A stretch of 35,352 bases of DNA from Planctomycetota bacterium (GTDB lineage Bacteria > Planctomycetota > UBA11346), in assembly GCA_007695355.1 (NCBI GenBank), contig REDX01000224.1:1-35352 (forward strand), read 5' to 3'. Below the pieces are notes generated by a model. That model saw only the letters and a list, made by a program, of their open reading frames with translations. It did no database searches and was not told where the DNA came from. How positions within the stretch are numbered: position 1 is the first letter of the stretch; each line of letters opens with the position of its first letter. Position numbers and translations under genes: made by a program. Positions 5,351 through 15,657 of the stretch are shown in pieces.

Positions 5351-6259
5351 CTATATTGGTGGATCGCTGCGCCCGCCGACATCGTGAAAGGCCATCCATT
5401 GACTGGGCACGGCGTGGATGAAGCGATCCATGACGCGGGCAAGCTGATGCATGAGGATGGGAAGTTGTTCGGCCTTGCTTAACTCGGGATGGGGCAAGAT
5501 GGGCTTGGCGACGAGGAGGGCAAAGCCGCTGGTGCCGCGGCGGGCAAGTAAGACCGGAATAATCGGAGCCCCGCTTTGTACCGCCAGGGCCGCCGGTCCT
5601 ACGGGTAAACTTACCTGGTGTCCTGCCAAAGGGAGGACCATGCCATTGCCGCTGTAATCCCGGTCGGCGACGATGCCCAGCAGACGCTGGTCGCGCAGGG
5701 CGCGCAGGCTGGCCAGGGGAGCTCGTTCAAGTAAAAGCGAGCGGGCGCTATGACTGGCCCGCATGCGGTCAAAAAGTTCATCGATGGCGGGATCGAGATT
5801 CGATCGAGAAATGACTCTAATGCTTTCGATCAGCCCGAGGTGGTGGCCAGCGGCGAGAAGCAGTTCCCAATTGCAGTGAATGGTGCAGAGAATGGCAGGC
5901 CCCTTGAGCGGGGGTTGCGCAAAAACCCCCCAGGGATCGACGATTTGGATATTCTGCGGGCTTACGAGCCAGCCTGGCAGGCGGGCTAAGCGAAAGGCCT
6001 CGTTAAACATCATCAGGCAGTGGACAAAGCTACGGCGAACCGAGCGCTCGACGTGGGCAAGGCCGCTGGAAGCCAGCATCGGCCGCAGATTGCGCCGCAC
6101 CCGCGAGCGTCCCTGACCGTCGATGAGCCAAGCAGCGAGGCCAATAATGATTGCGATCATCATGCCTAATCGGTAGGGCAGGCTGTGTCCCAGGGCAAAG
6201 GCCGTGCGAAAGAGGCGCAGACGCAGGGCTGGCCGGCTGGCGAAGAGTTCGCGGCTCAC
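5351..6259 (-). CDS. LpxL/HtrB-family lysophospholipid acyltransferase (lipid A acyltransferase-like)
   Basis: A 302-aa protein when started at GTG 6259, which forms a GTGA overlap with the recJ stop and has GGTGGAG about 11 nt upstream. An ATG at 6319 lies deep inside recJ and is less likely. A hydrophobic segment (LGMMIAIIIGLAAWLI, ~31-46) anchors it to the inner membrane. The family block ILCTIHCNWELL (~123-134) corresponds to the HX4E catalytic motif, but here only three residues separate His from Glu. Further family features are VADRDYSGNG, 'VQSGAPIIPVLLARR' and the C-terminal 'PSQWMAFHD'. Family members transfer acyl chains to lipid A precursors. The gene implies an outer membrane, although no other lipid A gene is in the window. 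It probably forms an operon with recJ. Confidence 0.82.
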   Translation of the reverse strand: MSRELFASRPALRLRLFRTAFALGHSLPYRLGMMIAIIIGLAAWLIDGQGRSRVRRNLRPMLASSGLAHVERSVRRSFVHCLMMFNEAFRLARLPGWLVSPQNIQIVDPWGVFAQPPLKGPAILCTIHCNWELLLAAGHHLGLIESIRVISRSNLDPAIDELFDRMRASHSARSLLLERAPLASLRALRDQRLLGIVADRDYSGNGMVLPLAGHQVSLPVGPAALAVQSGAPIIPVLLARRGTSGFALLVAKPILPHPELSKAEQLPILMHQLARVMDRFIHAVPSQWMAFHDVGGRSDPPI

Positions 6260-8001
6260 GCCCGTGCCGCTCCACCATCGACCATTACCAAACGGTGCTG
6301 GGCGTTTCCGCGGAACCAATCGATTTGCGGTCGCACGAGTACGTCGAGGCGACTATGTCGATCCACCCCTGGTAGGATCTGCACCGCCTTCCAGACAAGG
6401 AAATTCTGCATGCCGCCGCCATCATCGGTAAGGGCCCCGCGGAGGTGGGCCGAGCTGCGACCAAAAAATTGCGGATTGGTAAGAAAGCGAGCCCCTTGCA
6501 GGCGCAGCAGGGGTTCGGGATTGCCCTGCCCGAAGGGGCCGAGACGCAGTAGATCGGCATAGAACTCCGGAGTCAGGTCGCGGATGCGCACCCGGCCATC
6601 GTAGTCGATACCGGGGGCGCAAAGCCCCCCTGGGGATTGGCTGCGCACCGCCATGTCGAAGGCTTCACTAAAGGCAGGGACATTTTCTGGGGCGATAGTC
6701 AGGCCGGCGGCCATGGCGTGGCCGCCGCCCTTAATGAGATGCTGGCGACAGGCATCTAGGGCATGGCCCAGGTGAATGGAGGGGATGGTGCGCAGGCTGC
6801 CCTTGCCTTCGCCTTCATTAATCGCAATAACTACCGATGGTTTGGCAAACGCTTCGGTGAGTCGTGAGGCGATAATGCCGACCACGCCAGGGTGCCAGCC
6901 CTCGCCGGCAAAGACGAGACTGGCACGTTGGGCGTAGCGCTGTGGGTGTAATTCCACCTCGGCGCAGAGTTCCTCGGAGAGCAGCTGGGAAATGCGCCGG
7001 CGTTCCGTATTCTCGCGGGAAATCTCGGCCATCCAGGGCGCTGCCTCATCGCTGTTCTGACTGGAGAGTAGATGGACGTTGCGCATGGCGCTGCCGAGGC
7101 GACCAGAGGCATTGAGCAGGGGGGCCATTCGCCAGCCAATATCATCCACTGTCGGTTGTGGCCCCACCCGCGCTTCATCGAGCAGGGCGCGCAATCCCGG
7201 ATTACGTGTTTGCCCCAGATACTTCAATCCATGGTGGACCAAGATCCGATTCTCTCCATCCAGGGGGGCGCAATCCGCCACCGTGCCGATGGCAACCAGG
7301 GCCAGGGAATCCATTAGGAATTCGCGCAGTCCAGCGGGAAGTTTATCGCTGCCAGTGAGCTGACGGGCGGTGGCCCAGGCGAGTTTCCAGGCCACGCCGA
7401 CGCCGGCTAATCCCTTGTCGGGATAGGTGCAGCCGGGCTGATTGGGGTTGACCACGGCATGACAATTGGGCAGGGCGCCCTGGGGTAGATGGTGATCGGT
7501 AATAATGACGTCGCAGCCGGCGTCCGCTTCGATGCGTTGGGCCCAGCCATGGTCGGCGATGCCGCAGTCGACGGTAATCATTAACTGCGCCTGCTGTTCT
7601 CGTACCGCGGCGAGACTGGCCTCGCTGAGACCATAGCCATCGATGCGGCGATCGGGAATCCAGGGCACGGCGCGATGGCCAAAGCTGCGCACAAAGAGGG
7701 TAAGCAGGGTGGTGGCGGTAGAGCCATCAACGTCGTAATCGCCATGGATGAGGATGGTCTCACGCTGATCGATGGCCTTGGCCAGGCGTCGGGCAGCGGC
7801 ATCCATGCCCTGCAGGCGTGCAGGATCGTGGATGTCGGCTAAGCGCTTGGCGAGGAAGCCCGATGCTTGATTCACATCTAGCACTCCGCGGCCGGCTAAA
7901 ATCCGTGCCGCTACTGGGCCCAGGCCCAATTCCCGGGTAAGCTCTTGCGCCACATCATCGGCGAAGGGCCGTTCTCGCCAGACCCGGGGCGTTACATTCA
8001 T
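6256..8001 (-). CDS. recJ: Single-stranded-DNA-specific 5'-3' exonuclease RecJ
   Basis: A 581-aa protein, the normal length for RecJ. DHH-family phosphoesterase motifs occur in order: HGDYDVDGSTA (~86-96), TVDCG (~143-147), TDHH (~168-171), GTVADCAPL and LNASGRLGSA. These are followed by the DHHA1 signature GGGHAMAAG and a C-terminal OB-fold region (RVRIRDLTPEF, LGPFGQGNPEP). RecJ degrades single-stranded DNA from the 5' end during recombinational and mismatch repair in the cytoplasm. The downstream acyltransferase start overlaps its stop. It diverges from the Pol I-like gene across a 481-bp gap. No Shine-Dalgarno sequence precedes the ATG; a TATGCT hexamer lies 6 nt upstream. Confidence 0.95.
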   Translation of the reverse strand: MNVTPRVWRERPFADDVAQELTRELGLGPVAARILAGRGVLDVNQASGFLAKRLADIHDPARLQGMDAAARRLAKAIDQRETILIHGDYDVDGSTATTLLTLFVRSFGHRAVPWIPDRRIDGYGLSEASLAAVREQQAQLMITVDCGIADHGWAQRIEADAGCDVIITDHHLPQGALPNCHAVVNPNQPGCTYPDKGLAGVGVAWKLAWATARQLTGSDKLPAGLREFLMDSLALVAIGTVADCAPLDGENRILVHHGLKYLGQTRNPGLRALLDEARVGPQPTVDDIGWRMAPLLNASGRLGSAMRNVHLLSSQNSDEAAPWMAEISRENTERRRISQLLSEELCAEVELHPQRYAQRASLVFAGEGWHPGVVGIIASRLTEAFAKPSVVIAINEGEGKGSLRTIPSIHLGHALDACRQHLIKGGGHAMAAGLTIAPENVPAFSEAFDMAVRSQSPGGLCAPGIDYDGRVRIRDLTPEFYADLLRLGPFGQGNPEPLLRLQGARFLTNPQFFGRSSAHLRGALTDDGGGMQNFLVWKAVQILPGVDRHSRLDVLVRPQIDWFRGNAQHRLVMVDGGAARA

Positions 8002-8482: not shown

Positions 8483-11179
8483 GTGGATGTGCTGGCGGTC
8501 CATTTTCGATTCCCATGCGCCTCCGTGCTGTTTGGAATCATCCCCACCCTCCTTTCATCTCCTGGGAATCACCCCCTGTTGAGCCTTCCTGAGTCGCCAC
8601 CATCACCTATCGCGGTGATCATTGACGGCAATTATTTTGCCCATCGTTTTTATTACGGCCGCTCTGCGCTGAGCGGTCACGATGGTAGCGATGTCGGAAT
8701 GCTCCTGGCCTATGCGCAGTGGCTTTTGGAGTTACGCGCTGATGCGCGCCTTTCGCACCTGGTCTTGGTGCTTGATCACCCGGGGCCGTCCTTTCGGCAT
8801 CAGCTTTATCCGGCATATAAGGCCCAGCGGCCCCCGTCACCGGCGCCGCTCCAGACTCAATTGGCTTGTTTGCCCGCATTGGCTGTAGCCTTGGGGGTGC
8901 CGGTGCTGCAGCGCCCTGGGGTTGAGGCTGATGACGTTATTGCCTCTCTTTGTCGGGCCTTAACGCGTCAGCCTGGGCAGATTTGGCTTGCCACCAGCGA
9001 CAAAGACCTTGATCAATTATTGAGCCCGCAGGTAAGCACCTGGGATCCCTTTCGTGATACCAGGCGTGCGCCTGCCGATCTCTGGCAAGAGCGCGGTATT
9101 ACGCCGCAGCAGGTGCCCGATTGGCTCTGCATGGTTGGCGATAGCGCTGATAATATTCCCGGCATTCGTGGCATCGGCAGTAAGGGGGCGGCGCAGCTGC
9201 TGGGGCAACACGGAAGCCTTGCCGAAGTGCTTGCCCGGGCCAGTTCCTTTACGCCGCGCCGGCAGCAGGCCTGCGCTGAATTTATGCAACGGCAAGAGCT
9301 AATGCAGCGTCTGGTGCGGGTGGTGGATGATCTCTTCTGCGATTCCCATGGTGGGTTTACTATCGACTGGCCTGATGTGCGTCCCGCCCCCTTGGACGCC
9401 GATGGGGCTTGGTTAGATCGGCTGGCCGCCCTTGGTTTGCCCTGTGCGCGCCTGCGCCAGCGCTATCTTAACGCTGAGGCAGCGCCTTCACCTACTGCAT
9501 TCACCACCGTCGAAGAGCTGTCGATCCATGTGCACTCTGGCTGGTGGGGAGTCGCCCTGGCCGCTGACGAGGCAGCGGGAGATGGGTCCCAGATATTGGC
9601 CTTGGTGGGTGAATCCCAGGGGGTTTGTCAGCGGCTTTTGCTGCGGCTGCAGCCGGATCAGGTCGCTGCCTGCCTGGCGGCAGCGCAGGCTCGAGGGGCA
9701 GCCTTGGGTGTTCTTGATGCAGCCGCCTGGCAGGGCGATTGGCGTGCGGTTTTAGTGCCCATGTTAAGCGCATGCTGTCGCAGTGGGCAGTGGCTTTTAG
9801 ACCCCGAGGCGACAAGGCCTGCGCTTCCCGCCCTCGCCCCATTAGCGGCGGCAGAAGCCGCCTTTGCGGACCTGCAACGTCTCCATGCAGCCTTCCGTGA
9901 CCAGGGCTTGGCGGCCTATGCGCAGGACGTTCACTGGCCACAGCAGCACCTACTATGGCGACTAGCGGCTACACAGTTGCCCTGTGCCAGTCCGGTGTGG
10001 GCCCTGGCTTGGCAGGAGTTAGCGGAATGGCAAGGGCAGTTGCGCCGGGATCTTTTCGCCATCGCTGGCCGTCCGCTGGATCTTGATCAGCCGGCTCAGG
10101 TGGCAGATTTCATCTTGCGACGCTGCGATATCTTGCCATCGACGCAATCATCTCTGGTGGTGAACGTAGATGATGCGAGTTTGCAGGCTCTGCGTGGTCA
10201 ACACGAAGTTGTCGAAACGGTGCTGCAAGAGCGGCAGGCGCGGCGCCTGCTGCATGATGCTTGCCCGGCTAGTCCCTTGCCGCCCTGCCGTTTACAAAGA
10301 CATGGTTTGGCCGGAGAGCTTCGTGCTGATAATCCAGTGTGGCAGCACTGGCCCGCCGCCGATGCCATGGGCCGTGGTTTGCGCTCGGCCGTTCGCTGCG
10401 ATGGTGGCAGCGACCGCCTGTTGAGCATGCGCTGTCCCGATGCCGATCTTGCCCTATTGGCAGCACATGCTGGCGATGAACAGCTTAGCGCCCAGTTACG
10501 CGCTGGTGATCCTTGGCGAGCAATGGCCGCCGTAGTCTTAGCGTTGCCGCCGTCGATGGTGGCGCCACGGCATAAGCGACTGGCCCAGGATCTGCACCGC
10601 TGCCTTCTTGAACAACGTCTGCTTGCTCCATTGGCCCAACGCTATTCCCTTGAGATGAATGATGTGGAATCATTCTCTATTCGCCATCGCCAGTGTTATG
10701 CTGGACTTCATGATTGGCTTGGACGCACGGTGCGCGATGCTGCTGCTTGCGGCTGGATAACCCTTCCCAGTGGGCGTCGTCTGCGCGCCTCTCGCAGCGG
10801 CGAGGGCGATTTTGCCGCCTTGTTGCTGCGCCGACGGGTGCTTGCGGCCTGGTCTGGGGCGGTGGTTGACGGCCAGCTGGCCCTGGCCTTGGCCTATGCC
10901 GAGCGCTTTCCGCAAACGAGATTGCTTGCCCTGTGCCCTGGCGAATGGCTGTGGCAGGTGCCAACCCAGCGGATCGATGCCAGCATAACCTGGTTGCAGG
11001 CATGGATGCAGCACTGGGCTCCTCATGCCCGGCCCCAATTCGGCTCAGCTGAAGATTGGGGCCAAGCCAGTGCCGCGGCGCTTTTGCGTCCCGGTCTTCC
11101 TGCGGCTATGCCGCCGGTTTCGGGGCATGCCCCGGCCCTGTCCCTGGCGCGTGGCCAGGAGGCGGCAAGTCCCCTTTAA
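8483..11179 (+). CDS. polA: DNA polymerase I-like protein: intact 5' nuclease, catalytically dead polymerase domain
   Basis: An 898-aa protein with the length and domain order of Pol I. The 5' nuclease (FEN) domain, ~43-285, keeps all expected acidic motifs: IIDGN, GPSFRHQLYPAYKAQR, VEADDVIA, ATSDKDLD and GDSADNIPGIRGIGSKGA. The 3'-5' exonuclease region (~350-420) has lost the D-x-E motif (LAADEA). The polymerase domain (~500-850) is still alignable: 'GDEQL' follows motif A and 'GWITLPSGRRLR' is conserved. The motif A aspartate of DYSQIELR is Arg650. Motif B lacks the K/F/YG pattern. Motif C VHDE reads CPGE (817-821, Asp to Gly). It should therefore be unable to polymerise DNA but may still cleave flaps. 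The first ~40 residues are unlike the family, so a later TTG or GTG start near 8579-8615 is possible. It precedes rho by 22 bp. Confidence 0.85.
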   Translation: MDVLAVHFRFPCASVLFGIIPTLLSSPGNHPLLSLPESPPSPIAVIIDGNYFAHRFYYGRSALSGHDGSDVGMLLAYAQWLLELRADARLSHLVLVLDHPGPSFRHQLYPAYKAQRPPSPAPLQTQLACLPALAVALGVPVLQRPGVEADDVIASLCRALTRQPGQIWLATSDKDLDQLLSPQVSTWDPFRDTRRAPADLWQERGITPQQVPDWLCMVGDSADNIPGIRGIGSKGAAQLLGQHGSLAEVLARASSFTPRRQQACAEFMQRQELMQRLVRVVDDLFCDSHGGFTIDWPDVRPAPLDADGAWLDRLAALGLPCARLRQRYLNAEAAPSPTAFTTVEELSIHVHSGWWGVALAADEAAGDGSQILALVGESQGVCQRLLLRLQPDQVAACLAAAQARGAALGVLDAAAWQGDWRAVLVPMLSACCRSGQWLLDPEATRPALPALAPLAAAEAAFADLQRLHAAFRDQGLAAYAQDVHWPQQHLLWRLAATQLPCASPVWALAWQELAEWQGQLRRDLFAIAGRPLDLDQPAQVADFILRRCDILPSTQSSLVVNVDDASLQALRGQHEVVETVLQERQARRLLHDACPASPLPPCRLQRHGLAGELRADNPVWQHWPAADAMGRGLRSAVRCDGGSDRLLSMRCPDADLALLAAHAGDEQLSAQLRAGDPWRAMAAVVLALPPSMVAPRHKRLAQDLHRCLLEQRLLAPLAQRYSLEMNDVESFSIRHRQCYAGLHDWLGRTVRDAAACGWITLPSGRRLRASRSGEGDFAALLLRRRVLAAWSGAVVDGQLALALAYAERFPQTRLLALCPGEWLWQVPTQRIDASITWLQAWMQHWAPHARPQFGSAEDWGQASAAALLRPGLPAAMPPVSGHAPALSLARGQEAASPL

Positions 11180-11201
11180 TGTTTTGTTTCACCACCCCCG
11201 C

Positions 11202-13415
11202 ATGGATACGTCTATGAGTCAATCGTTTGATGCCCATTCCCACAACAACGGTTCCCCCCACGGCAATGGGGATAATCGCAATCGCCGCCGTCGTCGTCGT
11301 GGCCGCCGCCGTGGTGGCCATGAAGGCGGTGAGGCTCCGGCCTCTACCGCGACTGCTCCCGCTCCCATTGATCTGACGGTGCCGGCTGATAAGACCGTAG
11401 TTATTGGCATTACCGGCGAGCCCGCTGCTGGTAAAAGCGCCCTGGCTCACGAATTCGGCAAATTCGGCGCCGAAGTTATCGATGTTGATGCCGCCGGTCA
11501 CGAGGTCATCGAGCTCCCCAGCGTTAAGAAGAAGTTGGTGGAAGCCTTTGGTGAAGATATTCTCGATGAGAATAACACCATTCAGCGGGGTGCCTTGGCC
11601 GCCCGCGCCTTTGCCTCTGAGGATGCTACTCAGTCATTAAATCAAATCGTTTCCGGACAGTTGAGTCGCCGAATTAAGGCGCAATTGAAGAAGGCTGGAA
11701 ACTTTGTGGTTATCGATGCCGCCCGATTGCACGAGCTTGGGCTTGATGAGGGCACCACTCTCACGGTTTATGTCCGTGCACCGCAAGAGCAGCGAGCCCA
11801 GCGGGTTATGGAGCGGGGCTGGAGCGCAGAGGAGTTGGCCCAGCGCGATGCCGCCCTCGGTGATATCGATGAACGCCGCCTGCGTTGCAAACTTACCGTC
11901 GATAATTCCGGCGAGCCCCAGTTGTTGGAGGCCTACGCGAAAACCATCCTCGCTCGTCAGTTGGGCATTGATCTTACCGCCCGTCAGGCCCTGCGGCGAG
12001 ATGAGAGCGAGGACGAAGATGACGACGGCTACGACGACGATGGCGACGACGATGGCGACGATGGTCAAAGTGTTAATCGCCGTCCGCCGGCCCAGGCTCA
12101 GGCCCCAGTCCAGGCGCCGCGCGAGCCGGTGCGGGCTATACTCAGTGATTACCTCGCTCGCCAGGTCCCGGATCTGCAGCGCGAGGCCGAGAGCATGGGC
12201 GTGCGCGATGTGCGCTGGCTTTCCAAGGATGACCTCATCTGTGAGATTCTGCGCCGGGTTGCCGGCACCCGTCAGGATGACATTTTAGTCGAGGGTTTCA
12301 TCGAATTGGGTCCCAAGGCAGCCAATGGCTATTTGCGCTCCCAGTTGAATGAATATCACACCACGAATACGGATACCTTCATTACCCAGATGCAGCTGCG
12401 CCGTTACGGTCTTAAGGCTGGCATGCACGTTATTGGCACTGCTCGCGCACCGCGTGGCAATGAGCGCTGCCCCCAACTGCTGACGGTAAGCGAGGTGATG
12501 GGTGAAGACGTTAATGCGCAAACCCCGGTGCGGCCTTTCGAGAGTCTCACCCCTTTACATGCCAACCAACGTCTGTTTATGGAATTGCCCAACAACCCAG
12601 ACGAAGTGGCGCTGCGCATTATCGATCTCGTCTGTCCCATCGGCAAGGGTCAGCGCGGTTTGATTGTGGCCCAGCCTAAATGTGGCAAAACGGTGTACCT
12701 GCAAAAAATTGCTAATGCCATTACCACCAATAACCCTGAGTGCATTCTCATGGTGTTGCTGATTGATGAGCGCCCTGAAGAGGTCACCGATATGCAGCGT
12801 TCGGTGAAAGGCGAGGTTATCGCCTCGACCTTCGATATGCCTGCCTCGCGTCATGTCCAAGTGGCCGAAATGGCGATCAGCAAGGCCAAGCGCTTGGTCG
12901 AACGGGGCAAGGATGTGGTGATCCTCCTTGACTCGATCACCCGCCTCGCCCGTGGCTACAATACGGAATCCCCCAGTTCTGGTCGGATTATGTCCGGTGG
13001 CTTAGAGGCCTCCGCCCTGGTCAAGCCCCGGCAGTTTTTTGCCGCCGCCCGTAATATTGAAGATGGTGGCAGTCTCACCATCCTTGCCACCGCCCTGGTG
13101 GATACGGGCTCGGTAATGGACACGGTGATCTTTGAAGAGTTCAAGGGTACCGGCAATATGGAATTAGTGCTGGATCGCCGCCTCGCCAATAAGCGCATCT
13201 TCCCCGCTGTCGATATCGCCCAGAGCTCGACCCGGAAGGACGAGTTGCTGGTGGAGAGCCACGATGAGATGAAGCGCCTGTGGGCGCTGCGTAAATTCCT
13301 GGCTGATCGTAGTCCCCAGGACGCGGTGGATTTCCTCAAGGGCAAATTGCGCAATTATAAGACAAACGTCGAATTCCTGATGCATGTTGATCCGGAAAAG
13401 GCCAGTAGTTGGTGA
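11202..13415 (+). CDS. rho: Transcription termination factor Rho with N-terminal CoaE-like kinase domain
   Basis: A 737-aa protein from ATG 11202 (ATG 11214 is also possible; neither has a clear ribosome site). Residues 1-45 include an Arg/Gly-rich tail. Residues ~64-251 are homologous to dephospho-CoA kinase: Walker A GEPAAGKS (72-79), VIDVDAAGH (~92-100), 'IQRGALAARAF' and LTVDNSGEP. The HP motif and the P-L-L-x-E acceptor motif of true CoaE are replaced (VSGQ, DAARLHE). A highly acidic linker follows (~267-288). From ~311 on there is a full Rho: OB-fold RNA-binding region, Walker A AQPKCGKT (490-497), Walker B VVILLDSITRLARG, Q-loop and R-loop regions. Rho is an RNA helicase hexamer that ends transcription. 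The kinase-like domain may act as a nucleotide or CoA sensor or be an inactive tether; its role is unknown. Confidence 0.93.
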   Translation: MDTSMSQSFDAHSHNNGSPHGNGDNRNRRRRRRGRRRGGHEGGEAPASTATAPAPIDLTVPADKTVVIGITGEPAAGKSALAHEFGKFGAEVIDVDAAGHEVIELPSVKKKLVEAFGEDILDENNTIQRGALAARAFASEDATQSLNQIVSGQLSRRIKAQLKKAGNFVVIDAARLHELGLDEGTTLTVYVRAPQEQRAQRVMERGWSAEELAQRDAALGDIDERRLRCKLTVDNSGEPQLLEAYAKTILARQLGIDLTARQALRRDESEDEDDDGYDDDGDDDGDDGQSVNRRPPAQAQAPVQAPREPVRAILSDYLARQVPDLQREAESMGVRDVRWLSKDDLICEILRRVAGTRQDDILVEGFIELGPKAANGYLRSQLNEYHTTNTDTFITQMQLRRYGLKAGMHVIGTARAPRGNERCPQLLTVSEVMGEDVNAQTPVRPFESLTPLHANQRLFMELPNNPDEVALRIIDLVCPIGKGQRGLIVAQPKCGKTVYLQKIANAITTNNPECILMVLLIDERPEEVTDMQRSVKGEVIASTFDMPASRHVQVAEMAISKAKRLVERGKDVVILLDSITRLARGYNTESPSSGRIMSGGLEASALVKPRQFFAAARNIEDGGSLTILATALVDTGSVMDTVIFEEFKGTGNMELVLDRRLANKRIFPAVDIAQSSTRKDELLVESHDEMKRLWALRKFLADRSPQDAVDFLKGKLRNYKTNVEFLMHVDPEKASSW

Positions 13416-15150: not shown

Positions 15151-15657
15151 ATGAGTTCCCTCCTGCGTCCACCAACTGAACCTGAATTCCTCCCCGAGGG
15201 TTGTTTGCCCTGTGATCGGGTGCGCGAGGACAATGTGGTGGTGCATTCGCTTACCGGCCACGCCCTGCAAGAGTTGGAACGGCACAAGTGGATTGAAAGT
15301 CAAAAGCACGGCCACGATGTCGGTGCTTTCGCCTATCAGCATTGGCTTGATCATTGCTGGAAAGGTTGGACGCGCGCTAAGCTGCTGGAACACCTCTACG
15401 GATGGCGCTGCTGGGGGGCTTTTGATGAAGATGATTTTGGACTCTTTGCGCAATCCACCGTCGATCATCATGTCAGCTCAGAGGTGCTGGAGCAAGTCGC
15501 CGAGATTCTCGCCAATGGCGGGGAAAACCTTGATGTTATCAATTGGGCCGTGGAGGTGAACGCCGACATTGCTGCGATTATGTGGTTGCTTGACCGCATC
15601 GACATTAATGCCAAGCGGCAGCGTTTACTGACCAATCACATTCGTCTGTTTATCTAA
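15151..15657 (+). CDS. Conserved-looking protein of unknown function in glycogen cluster
   Basis: A 168-aa protein, acidic and rich in Trp and His, with no signal peptide or membrane segment. I do not recognise the family. Distinctive stretches are 'RHKWIESQKHGHDVG' (~44-58), 'HCWKGWTRAKLLEHLYGW' (~68-85) and 'FDEDDFGLF' (~91-99). They have the look of a soluble, mostly helical domain with conserved aromatic patches. Its ATG is 3 bp after the glgC stop, so the two are almost certainly co-transcribed and translationally coupled. That places it in ADP-glucose or glycogen metabolism, perhaps as a regulator or scaffold of GlgC. Function is inferred from position only. Confidence 0.75.
   Translation: MSSLLRPPTEPEFLPEGCLPCDRVREDNVVVHSLTGHALQELERHKWIESQKHGHDVGAFAYQHWLDHCWKGWTRAKLLEHLYGWRCWGAFDEDDFGLFAQSTVDHHVSSEVLEQVAEILANGGENLDVINWAVEVNADIAAIMWLLDRIDINAKRQRLLTNHIRLFI

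Follow-up and report, generated by a model that had tools for sequence, protein, structure and literature searches.

DNA polymerase I (PolA1), as in Escherichia coli and Taq, is found in about 96% of bacteria, and FEN, not the polymerase, is argued to be its indispensable part (PMC12926913). The same source, which surveyed over 3000 bacterial species, describes FEN function as nearly universal and, citing Fukushima 2007, states that some bacteria can do without the Pol I polymerase so long as they have FEN, the near-universal bacterial need being for FEN and not for Pol I polymerase activity (PMC12926913). In Bacillus subtilis the two functions are already split between two proteins: the discrete FEN does different work from the Pol I polymerase part, Pol I cannot substitute for FEN, and FenA has been proposed as the main Okazaki nuclease (PMC10191290). 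Discrete FENs (B. subtilis FenA/YpcP, E. coli ExoIX/Xni) are proteins of about 250-300 aa without a polymerase domain. The nearest published logic to the case described here—a polymerase site lost, a nuclease kept and used—is that of noncanonical prokaryotic PolX (Deinococcus and others), in which the polymerase is inactive and the exonuclease efficient (PMC9226535). PolX, however, belongs to family X, carries a PHP 3'-5' exonuclease and is widely distributed, not confined to a single lineage that also has a replacement copy. Polymerase folds have likewise outlasted catalysis in PolB2, the inactivated Pol epsilon module and ImuB, which belong to families B and Y and have no FEN domain, and among which a PolB2 is reported to have proved active (PMC8764526). 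The reverse case is PolA2/APEX of Actinobacteria, described in PMC12926913 as an additional family-A protein with an eclipsed exonuclease, in which the polymerase is kept and FEN is absent. Searches of open-licence papers turned up no polymerase-dead Pol I with its FEN kept, and a 2026 survey of bacterial polymerases, so far as its main text shows, reports none either.

The window (the whole stretch of DNA analysed, 35,352 nucleotides from a planctomycete genome, G000) carries a polA gene that shares with Pol I the order FEN, proofreading remnant and polymerase, the syntenic polA locus and a complete FEN site, but lacks motifs A, B and C and the proofreading motif and scores far below the cut-offs of the NCBIfam 'DNA polymerase I' equivalog models (231.8 vs 720, and 202.5 vs 600). 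FEN activity would here be expected apart from a working Pol I, as in the discrete FENs, from which the window protein differs in having PF00476.

Domain layout and catalytic sites of the window protein

The gene is a single uninterrupted frame of 898 codons (8483-11179, +) encoding a full-length DNA polymerase I homologue, as the original prediction had it, although the proofreading region barely aligns. There is no ATG start in this frame, and the GTG at 8483 from which it had been read is probably not the real start, which is more likely to lie at 8579-8615 because neither the FEN homology nor the G001 orthologue extends further upstream than codon 45 (GTG 8615). The features are:

8483..11179 (+), complete ORF of the predicted polymerase-dead PolA; probable true start between TTG 8579 and GTG 8615
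8615..9340 (+), FEN / 5'-3' exonuclease domain, residues 45-286 (Pfam PF02739 and PF01367, alignment); nine acidic metal ligands intact
9341..9892 (+), 3'-5' proofreading remnant, residues 287-470; no DTET motif, which relatives have; model mostly disordered
9893..11107 (+), putatively dead family-A polymerase domain, residues 471-875 (PF00476; hmmsearch with a profile of intact relatives, E = 2e-21; AF2 pLDDT)
10430..10432 (+), motif A metal-ligand position, Arg650 replacing Asp (alignment)
10574..10615 (+), motif B / O-helix, residues 698-711, with K698, Q702, R706 and E710 replacing Arg, Lys, Phe and Tyr (alignment)
10937..10945 (+), motif C, Pro819-Gly820-Glu821 replacing His-Asp-Glu (alignment)
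11025..13415 (+), CoaE-Rho fusion ORF downstream of polA, a marker of the ancestral polA locus in the whole family (Pfam/NCBIfam, synteny); probable start 11202 or 11214

Both the FEN and the family-A polymerase Pfam domains exceed their curated cut-offs (5_3_exonuc_N, E = 4e-35; 5_3_exonuc, 3e-18; DNA_pol_A, 3e-12), the FEN match spanning residues 45-285 and the DNA_pol_A match (PF00476) covering residues 511-768 with 46.5 bits vs a cut-off of 34.3; this score, and an AlphaFold2 model built with homologues, place the domain in the family-A fold.

Each active-site residue was compared with its counterparts in 18 intact relatives, in Taq numbering. The alignment bears out the predicted Arg650 at the motif A Asp (D610) and the change of VHDE to CPGE in motif C (H784 to P819, D785 to G820). 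Both metal-binding aspartates are gone, as had been claimed, but E786 is kept as E821, i.e., one of the three metal-site acids survives. Motif B is indeed lost, with Arg, Lys, Phe and Tyr all replaced (R659 by K698, K663 by Q702, F667 by R706 and Y671 by E710), and its O-helix pattern RxxxKxxxFxxxY is absent from the window protein; the primer-template contacts R573, N580, N583 and Q754 have become E612, V619, H622 and S791. Only E821 and G792 are kept among 21 tabulated polymerase positions (metal, dNTP, primer-template or adjoining), and Asp653 and Asp655 sit just past motif A. The residues at these sites support a window polymerase that is predicted to be catalytically dead.

The proofreading D-x-E, originally read as LAADEA, turned out to have no clear counterpart, because residues ~331-419 barely align and are modelled as disordered; the window protein lacks the motif, which almost every intact relative has and which the second polA copies described below have too. 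An independent loss of proofreading is seen in another genome, G011, whose single resident polA (L056:6244-9261) has kept its polymerase and reads IEAT at the D-x-E.

The claim that all acidic FEN motifs are kept holds for nine of nine ligands (D48, D98, E148, D150, D151, D173, D175, D220 and D223), which are invariant in a 17-protein alignment and include the three that ExoIX misses; 33 of the 36 FEN columns invariant in 18 active relatives are also retained.

AlphaFold2 (24 sequences) modelled FEN with high confidence, the thumb, fingers and palm with pLDDT mostly 80-95 and the old exonuclease region as disordered, and Foldseek with this model returned Taq (E = 8e-33) and Bacillus Pol I. The model retains the hairpin of motif C and the strand of motif A, with Pro-Gly-Glu and Arg650 in the places of the metal ligands. 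When only two dead sequences were supplied, pLDDT dropped to 38.6, and the resulting Foldseek hits (TM ~0.24) were set aside; since the confidence rests on intact homologues, the fold is backed by homology (the profile match at E = 2e-21) and not proven by the model.

A second polA and the ancestry of the dead copies

The analysis covered 23 genomes of the family, order- and class-level searches giving the same 23. A family-A polymerase was identified in 20 of them, and three, all fragmented MAGs of 86-91% completeness, have a degenerate copy together with an intact one: G000 (the window), G001 of the same genus and G008 of another genus. In each of these the dead polA lies at the polA-coaE/rho locus, where relatives with an assembled polA have a normal single gene, intact in the 15 whose full-length polA was aligned, and where a CoaE-Rho fusion gene directly follows polA in every relative with enough contig. 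Synteny and tree position identify the window gene as the resident polA; no close relative was found among viral contigs. The fusion of CoaE and Rho in one ORF of roughly 700-900 aa after polA occurs throughout the class (window 11025-13415 (+), L037, L038, L040-L046 and others), and a paper search found no published report of it. Upstream of the dead polA lies a divergently oriented recJ gene (window 6256-8001, -), a neighbour that the examined relatives were not seen to have at their polA loci.

A search for a second, intact polA, as originally proposed, found one outside the locus in exactly G000 (contig C303), G001 and G008, and across the 23 genomes the dead copy was never found without it. 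Since this gene is present in the same genome, another polymerase can fill gaps, and to that extent the suggestion that gap filling is left to another enzyme stands. The GC content of each second polA matches that of its own genome (59.8/58.4, 54.9/54.9 and 63.0/62.6); the second copies have little gene neighbourhood in common with one another, and dead and second genes lie on different contigs. Sequencing error, chimera or a binning artefact was rejected in view of independent genomes with the same locus and of the matching GC of each contig pair. Homologues of the same kind are thus present in G001 and G008, but at the metal sites the replacements differ per genome (in G000, G001 and G008 respectively, R, H and G in motif A and PGE, QQQ and RDE in motif C), G008 retaining the Asp-Glu of motif C. 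Two genomes of another Planctomycetota family (G134 and G177, family f18) have two full-length polA genes each, both of which score like intact polymerases, neither being dead, and might represent an earlier stage of the same route.

In the whole-protein phylogeny the dead copies of the three genomes fall together (97/100) within the resident polA clade, a grouping that the FEN-only tree, which long polymerase-domain branches cannot distort, recovers (97/91). The three second copies form a clade of their own (100/99), nearest to G145, a planctomycete outside the class, and the trees of dead and second polA share the same internal order, with G008 outside G000+G001. G000 and G001 have 21 derived polymerase-domain (POL) residues in common vs 8.2 expected, plus seven core gaps, so their ancestor must already have had a degenerate domain; judged from these residues, the dead state is older than the split of the two genomes. 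For G008, 13 shared derived residues vs 7.5 expected (P = 0.034) weakly suggest the same inactivation event, and CoaE-Rho neither shows nor rejects a G000+G001+G008 clade (p-AU 0.24). A single origin of the dead copies is the simplest reading, the alternative being that a second polA was shared and the resident copies of the dead-polA genomes were then inactivated one by one.

Constraint on the dead polymerase domain and alternative readings

Identities of the dead copies are 48-54% in FEN and 19-23% in POL, where intact relatives average 62% and 66%. Pairwise POL identity was discarded as evidence, as a shuffled sequence, globally aligned, gives a similar value (26.8% against 24.7%), and constraint was judged by profile score and retention of invariant columns instead. 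The dN/dS ratio cannot be computed at these distances because four-fold sites are saturated (29-39% identity in most gene comparisons between G000 and G001), a saturation at which an unconstrained domain would be unrecognisable. The dead POL domains fill 374-403 of 407 core columns and keep 33, 29 and 51 of 94 invariant columns, about five times the 6-7 expected by composition, with preferential loss at the active site (2 of 19 invariants kept there vs 31 of 75 elsewhere in the domain, P = 0.015). The same invariant positions are kept in G000 and G008 more often than expected (27 vs 17.9, P = 6e-5). Random stop codons, the sign of a recent pseudogene named with the original prediction, are absent from the three POL domains of two genera, where simulated neutral drift to 25% identity produced about 10 stops in each and never, in 100 runs, a domain free of them. 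Open frames, core filling and invariant retention therefore point to a domain relaxed for catalysis yet constrained as a protein and, together with the FEN identity, bear out the original view of selection for a non-polymerising protein: what selection maintains, as far as sequence can tell, is a FEN-bearing pseudo-polymerase and not a decaying gene. A recent pseudogene was rejected on the open frames, the saturated synonymous sites and the shared derived residues.

The low POL identity of the dead copies, the saturated POL branch lengths and the end of polA, close to or overlapping the coaE-rho ORF, would all fit a POL half that is a neutrally decaying remnant, with only FEN mattering and the frame open by chance or for translation into coaE-rho (polarity). 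This appears unlikely, given the lack of any stop in ~1,200 codons of three POL domains, the retained length and the excess of invariant columns at shared positions; pure translational coupling would not conserve residues. Slightly less probable again is a structural or regulatory role, in which the dead PolA would bring extra FEN to the intact second PolA as its partner, like inactive relatives in some polymerase complexes. Such a role agrees with the constant co-occurrence of the two genes, the matching order of their trees and an apparently retained fold that has lost its catalytic and DNA-contact residues, but the two genes lie apart on different contigs, and simple functional replacement predicts the same co-occurrence.

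It is very improbable that the window protein can still synthesise DNA at a shifted or atypical active site, on the pattern of archaeal PolB2, which was predicted to be inactive and is reported to show activity (PMC8764526). E821, the aspartates just after motif A and the Asp-Glu of G008 could be cited in its favour, but motif B and the primer-template contacts are gone; PolB2 is moreover a conserved family, whereas the dead PolAs differ per genome at the metal sites, which argues that no new conserved metal site has formed.

Predicted roles and wider context

The best explanation, with a probability of about 0.72, is that the resident polA turned into a FEN with a folded, dead polymerase domain after a second, complete polA had been gained. 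On this account the ancestor of the group would have acquired a polA of a different planctomycete type, presumably by transfer and not by an old duplication; with DNA synthesis covered, the resident gene would have lost polymerase and proofreading while staying under selection for its 5' nuclease. The dead PolA is most likely a dedicated flap/5' nuclease, which would cleave RNA primers and 5' flaps at the junctions of Okazaki fragments and of repair, with gap filling done by the second PolA. A standalone FEN gene was not found in the three dead-polA genomes, and one relative, G012, has one. The FEN of the second PolA is intact too, and the nuclease of the dead protein may for that reason be redundant; the dead protein must then add something, be it dosage, different substrates or partners.

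Of the originally proposed flap nuclease with a DNA-binding scaffold, the nuclease half agrees with the intact FEN site, but the scaffold finds no support, since R573, N580, N583, Q754 and the O-helix are lost as fully as the metal ligands; net charge, taken as an indicator of DNA binding, differs in no consistent way. More probably the domain has been retained as a folded appendage that serves stability, protein contact or a non-canonical DNA contact.

Whether this is the first natural polymerase-dead Pol I lineage, inherited across genera, with Okazaki nuclease and gap filling divided between two PolAs and a dead domain that is structural or partner-binding, we regard as an even bet. DNA copying and flap cutting, combined in a single enzyme in nearly all bacteria, would here be split between two genes, and evolution seems to have run the experiment of FEN against polymerase: with a second Pol I present, the resident copy kept FEN only. 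The 'dead polymerase, live nuclease' theme of PolX would thereby extend to family A, and the graded series from the less degraded G008 to the more degraded G000 and G001 would allow the passage from enzyme to pseudoenzyme to be studied. Annotation by domain architecture will label such genes DNA polymerase I.

Elsewhere in the window (15151-15657, +), a 168-aa protein encoded after glgC is without a Pfam or NCBIfam match and recurs in G001 (69% identical) and G012. Two large proteins of 1625 and 789 aa (L051:7347-12221 in G006:C174 and L052:6711-9077 in G013:C88) give weak, distant family-A matches and no FEN match, and perhaps come from phage or mobile elements.
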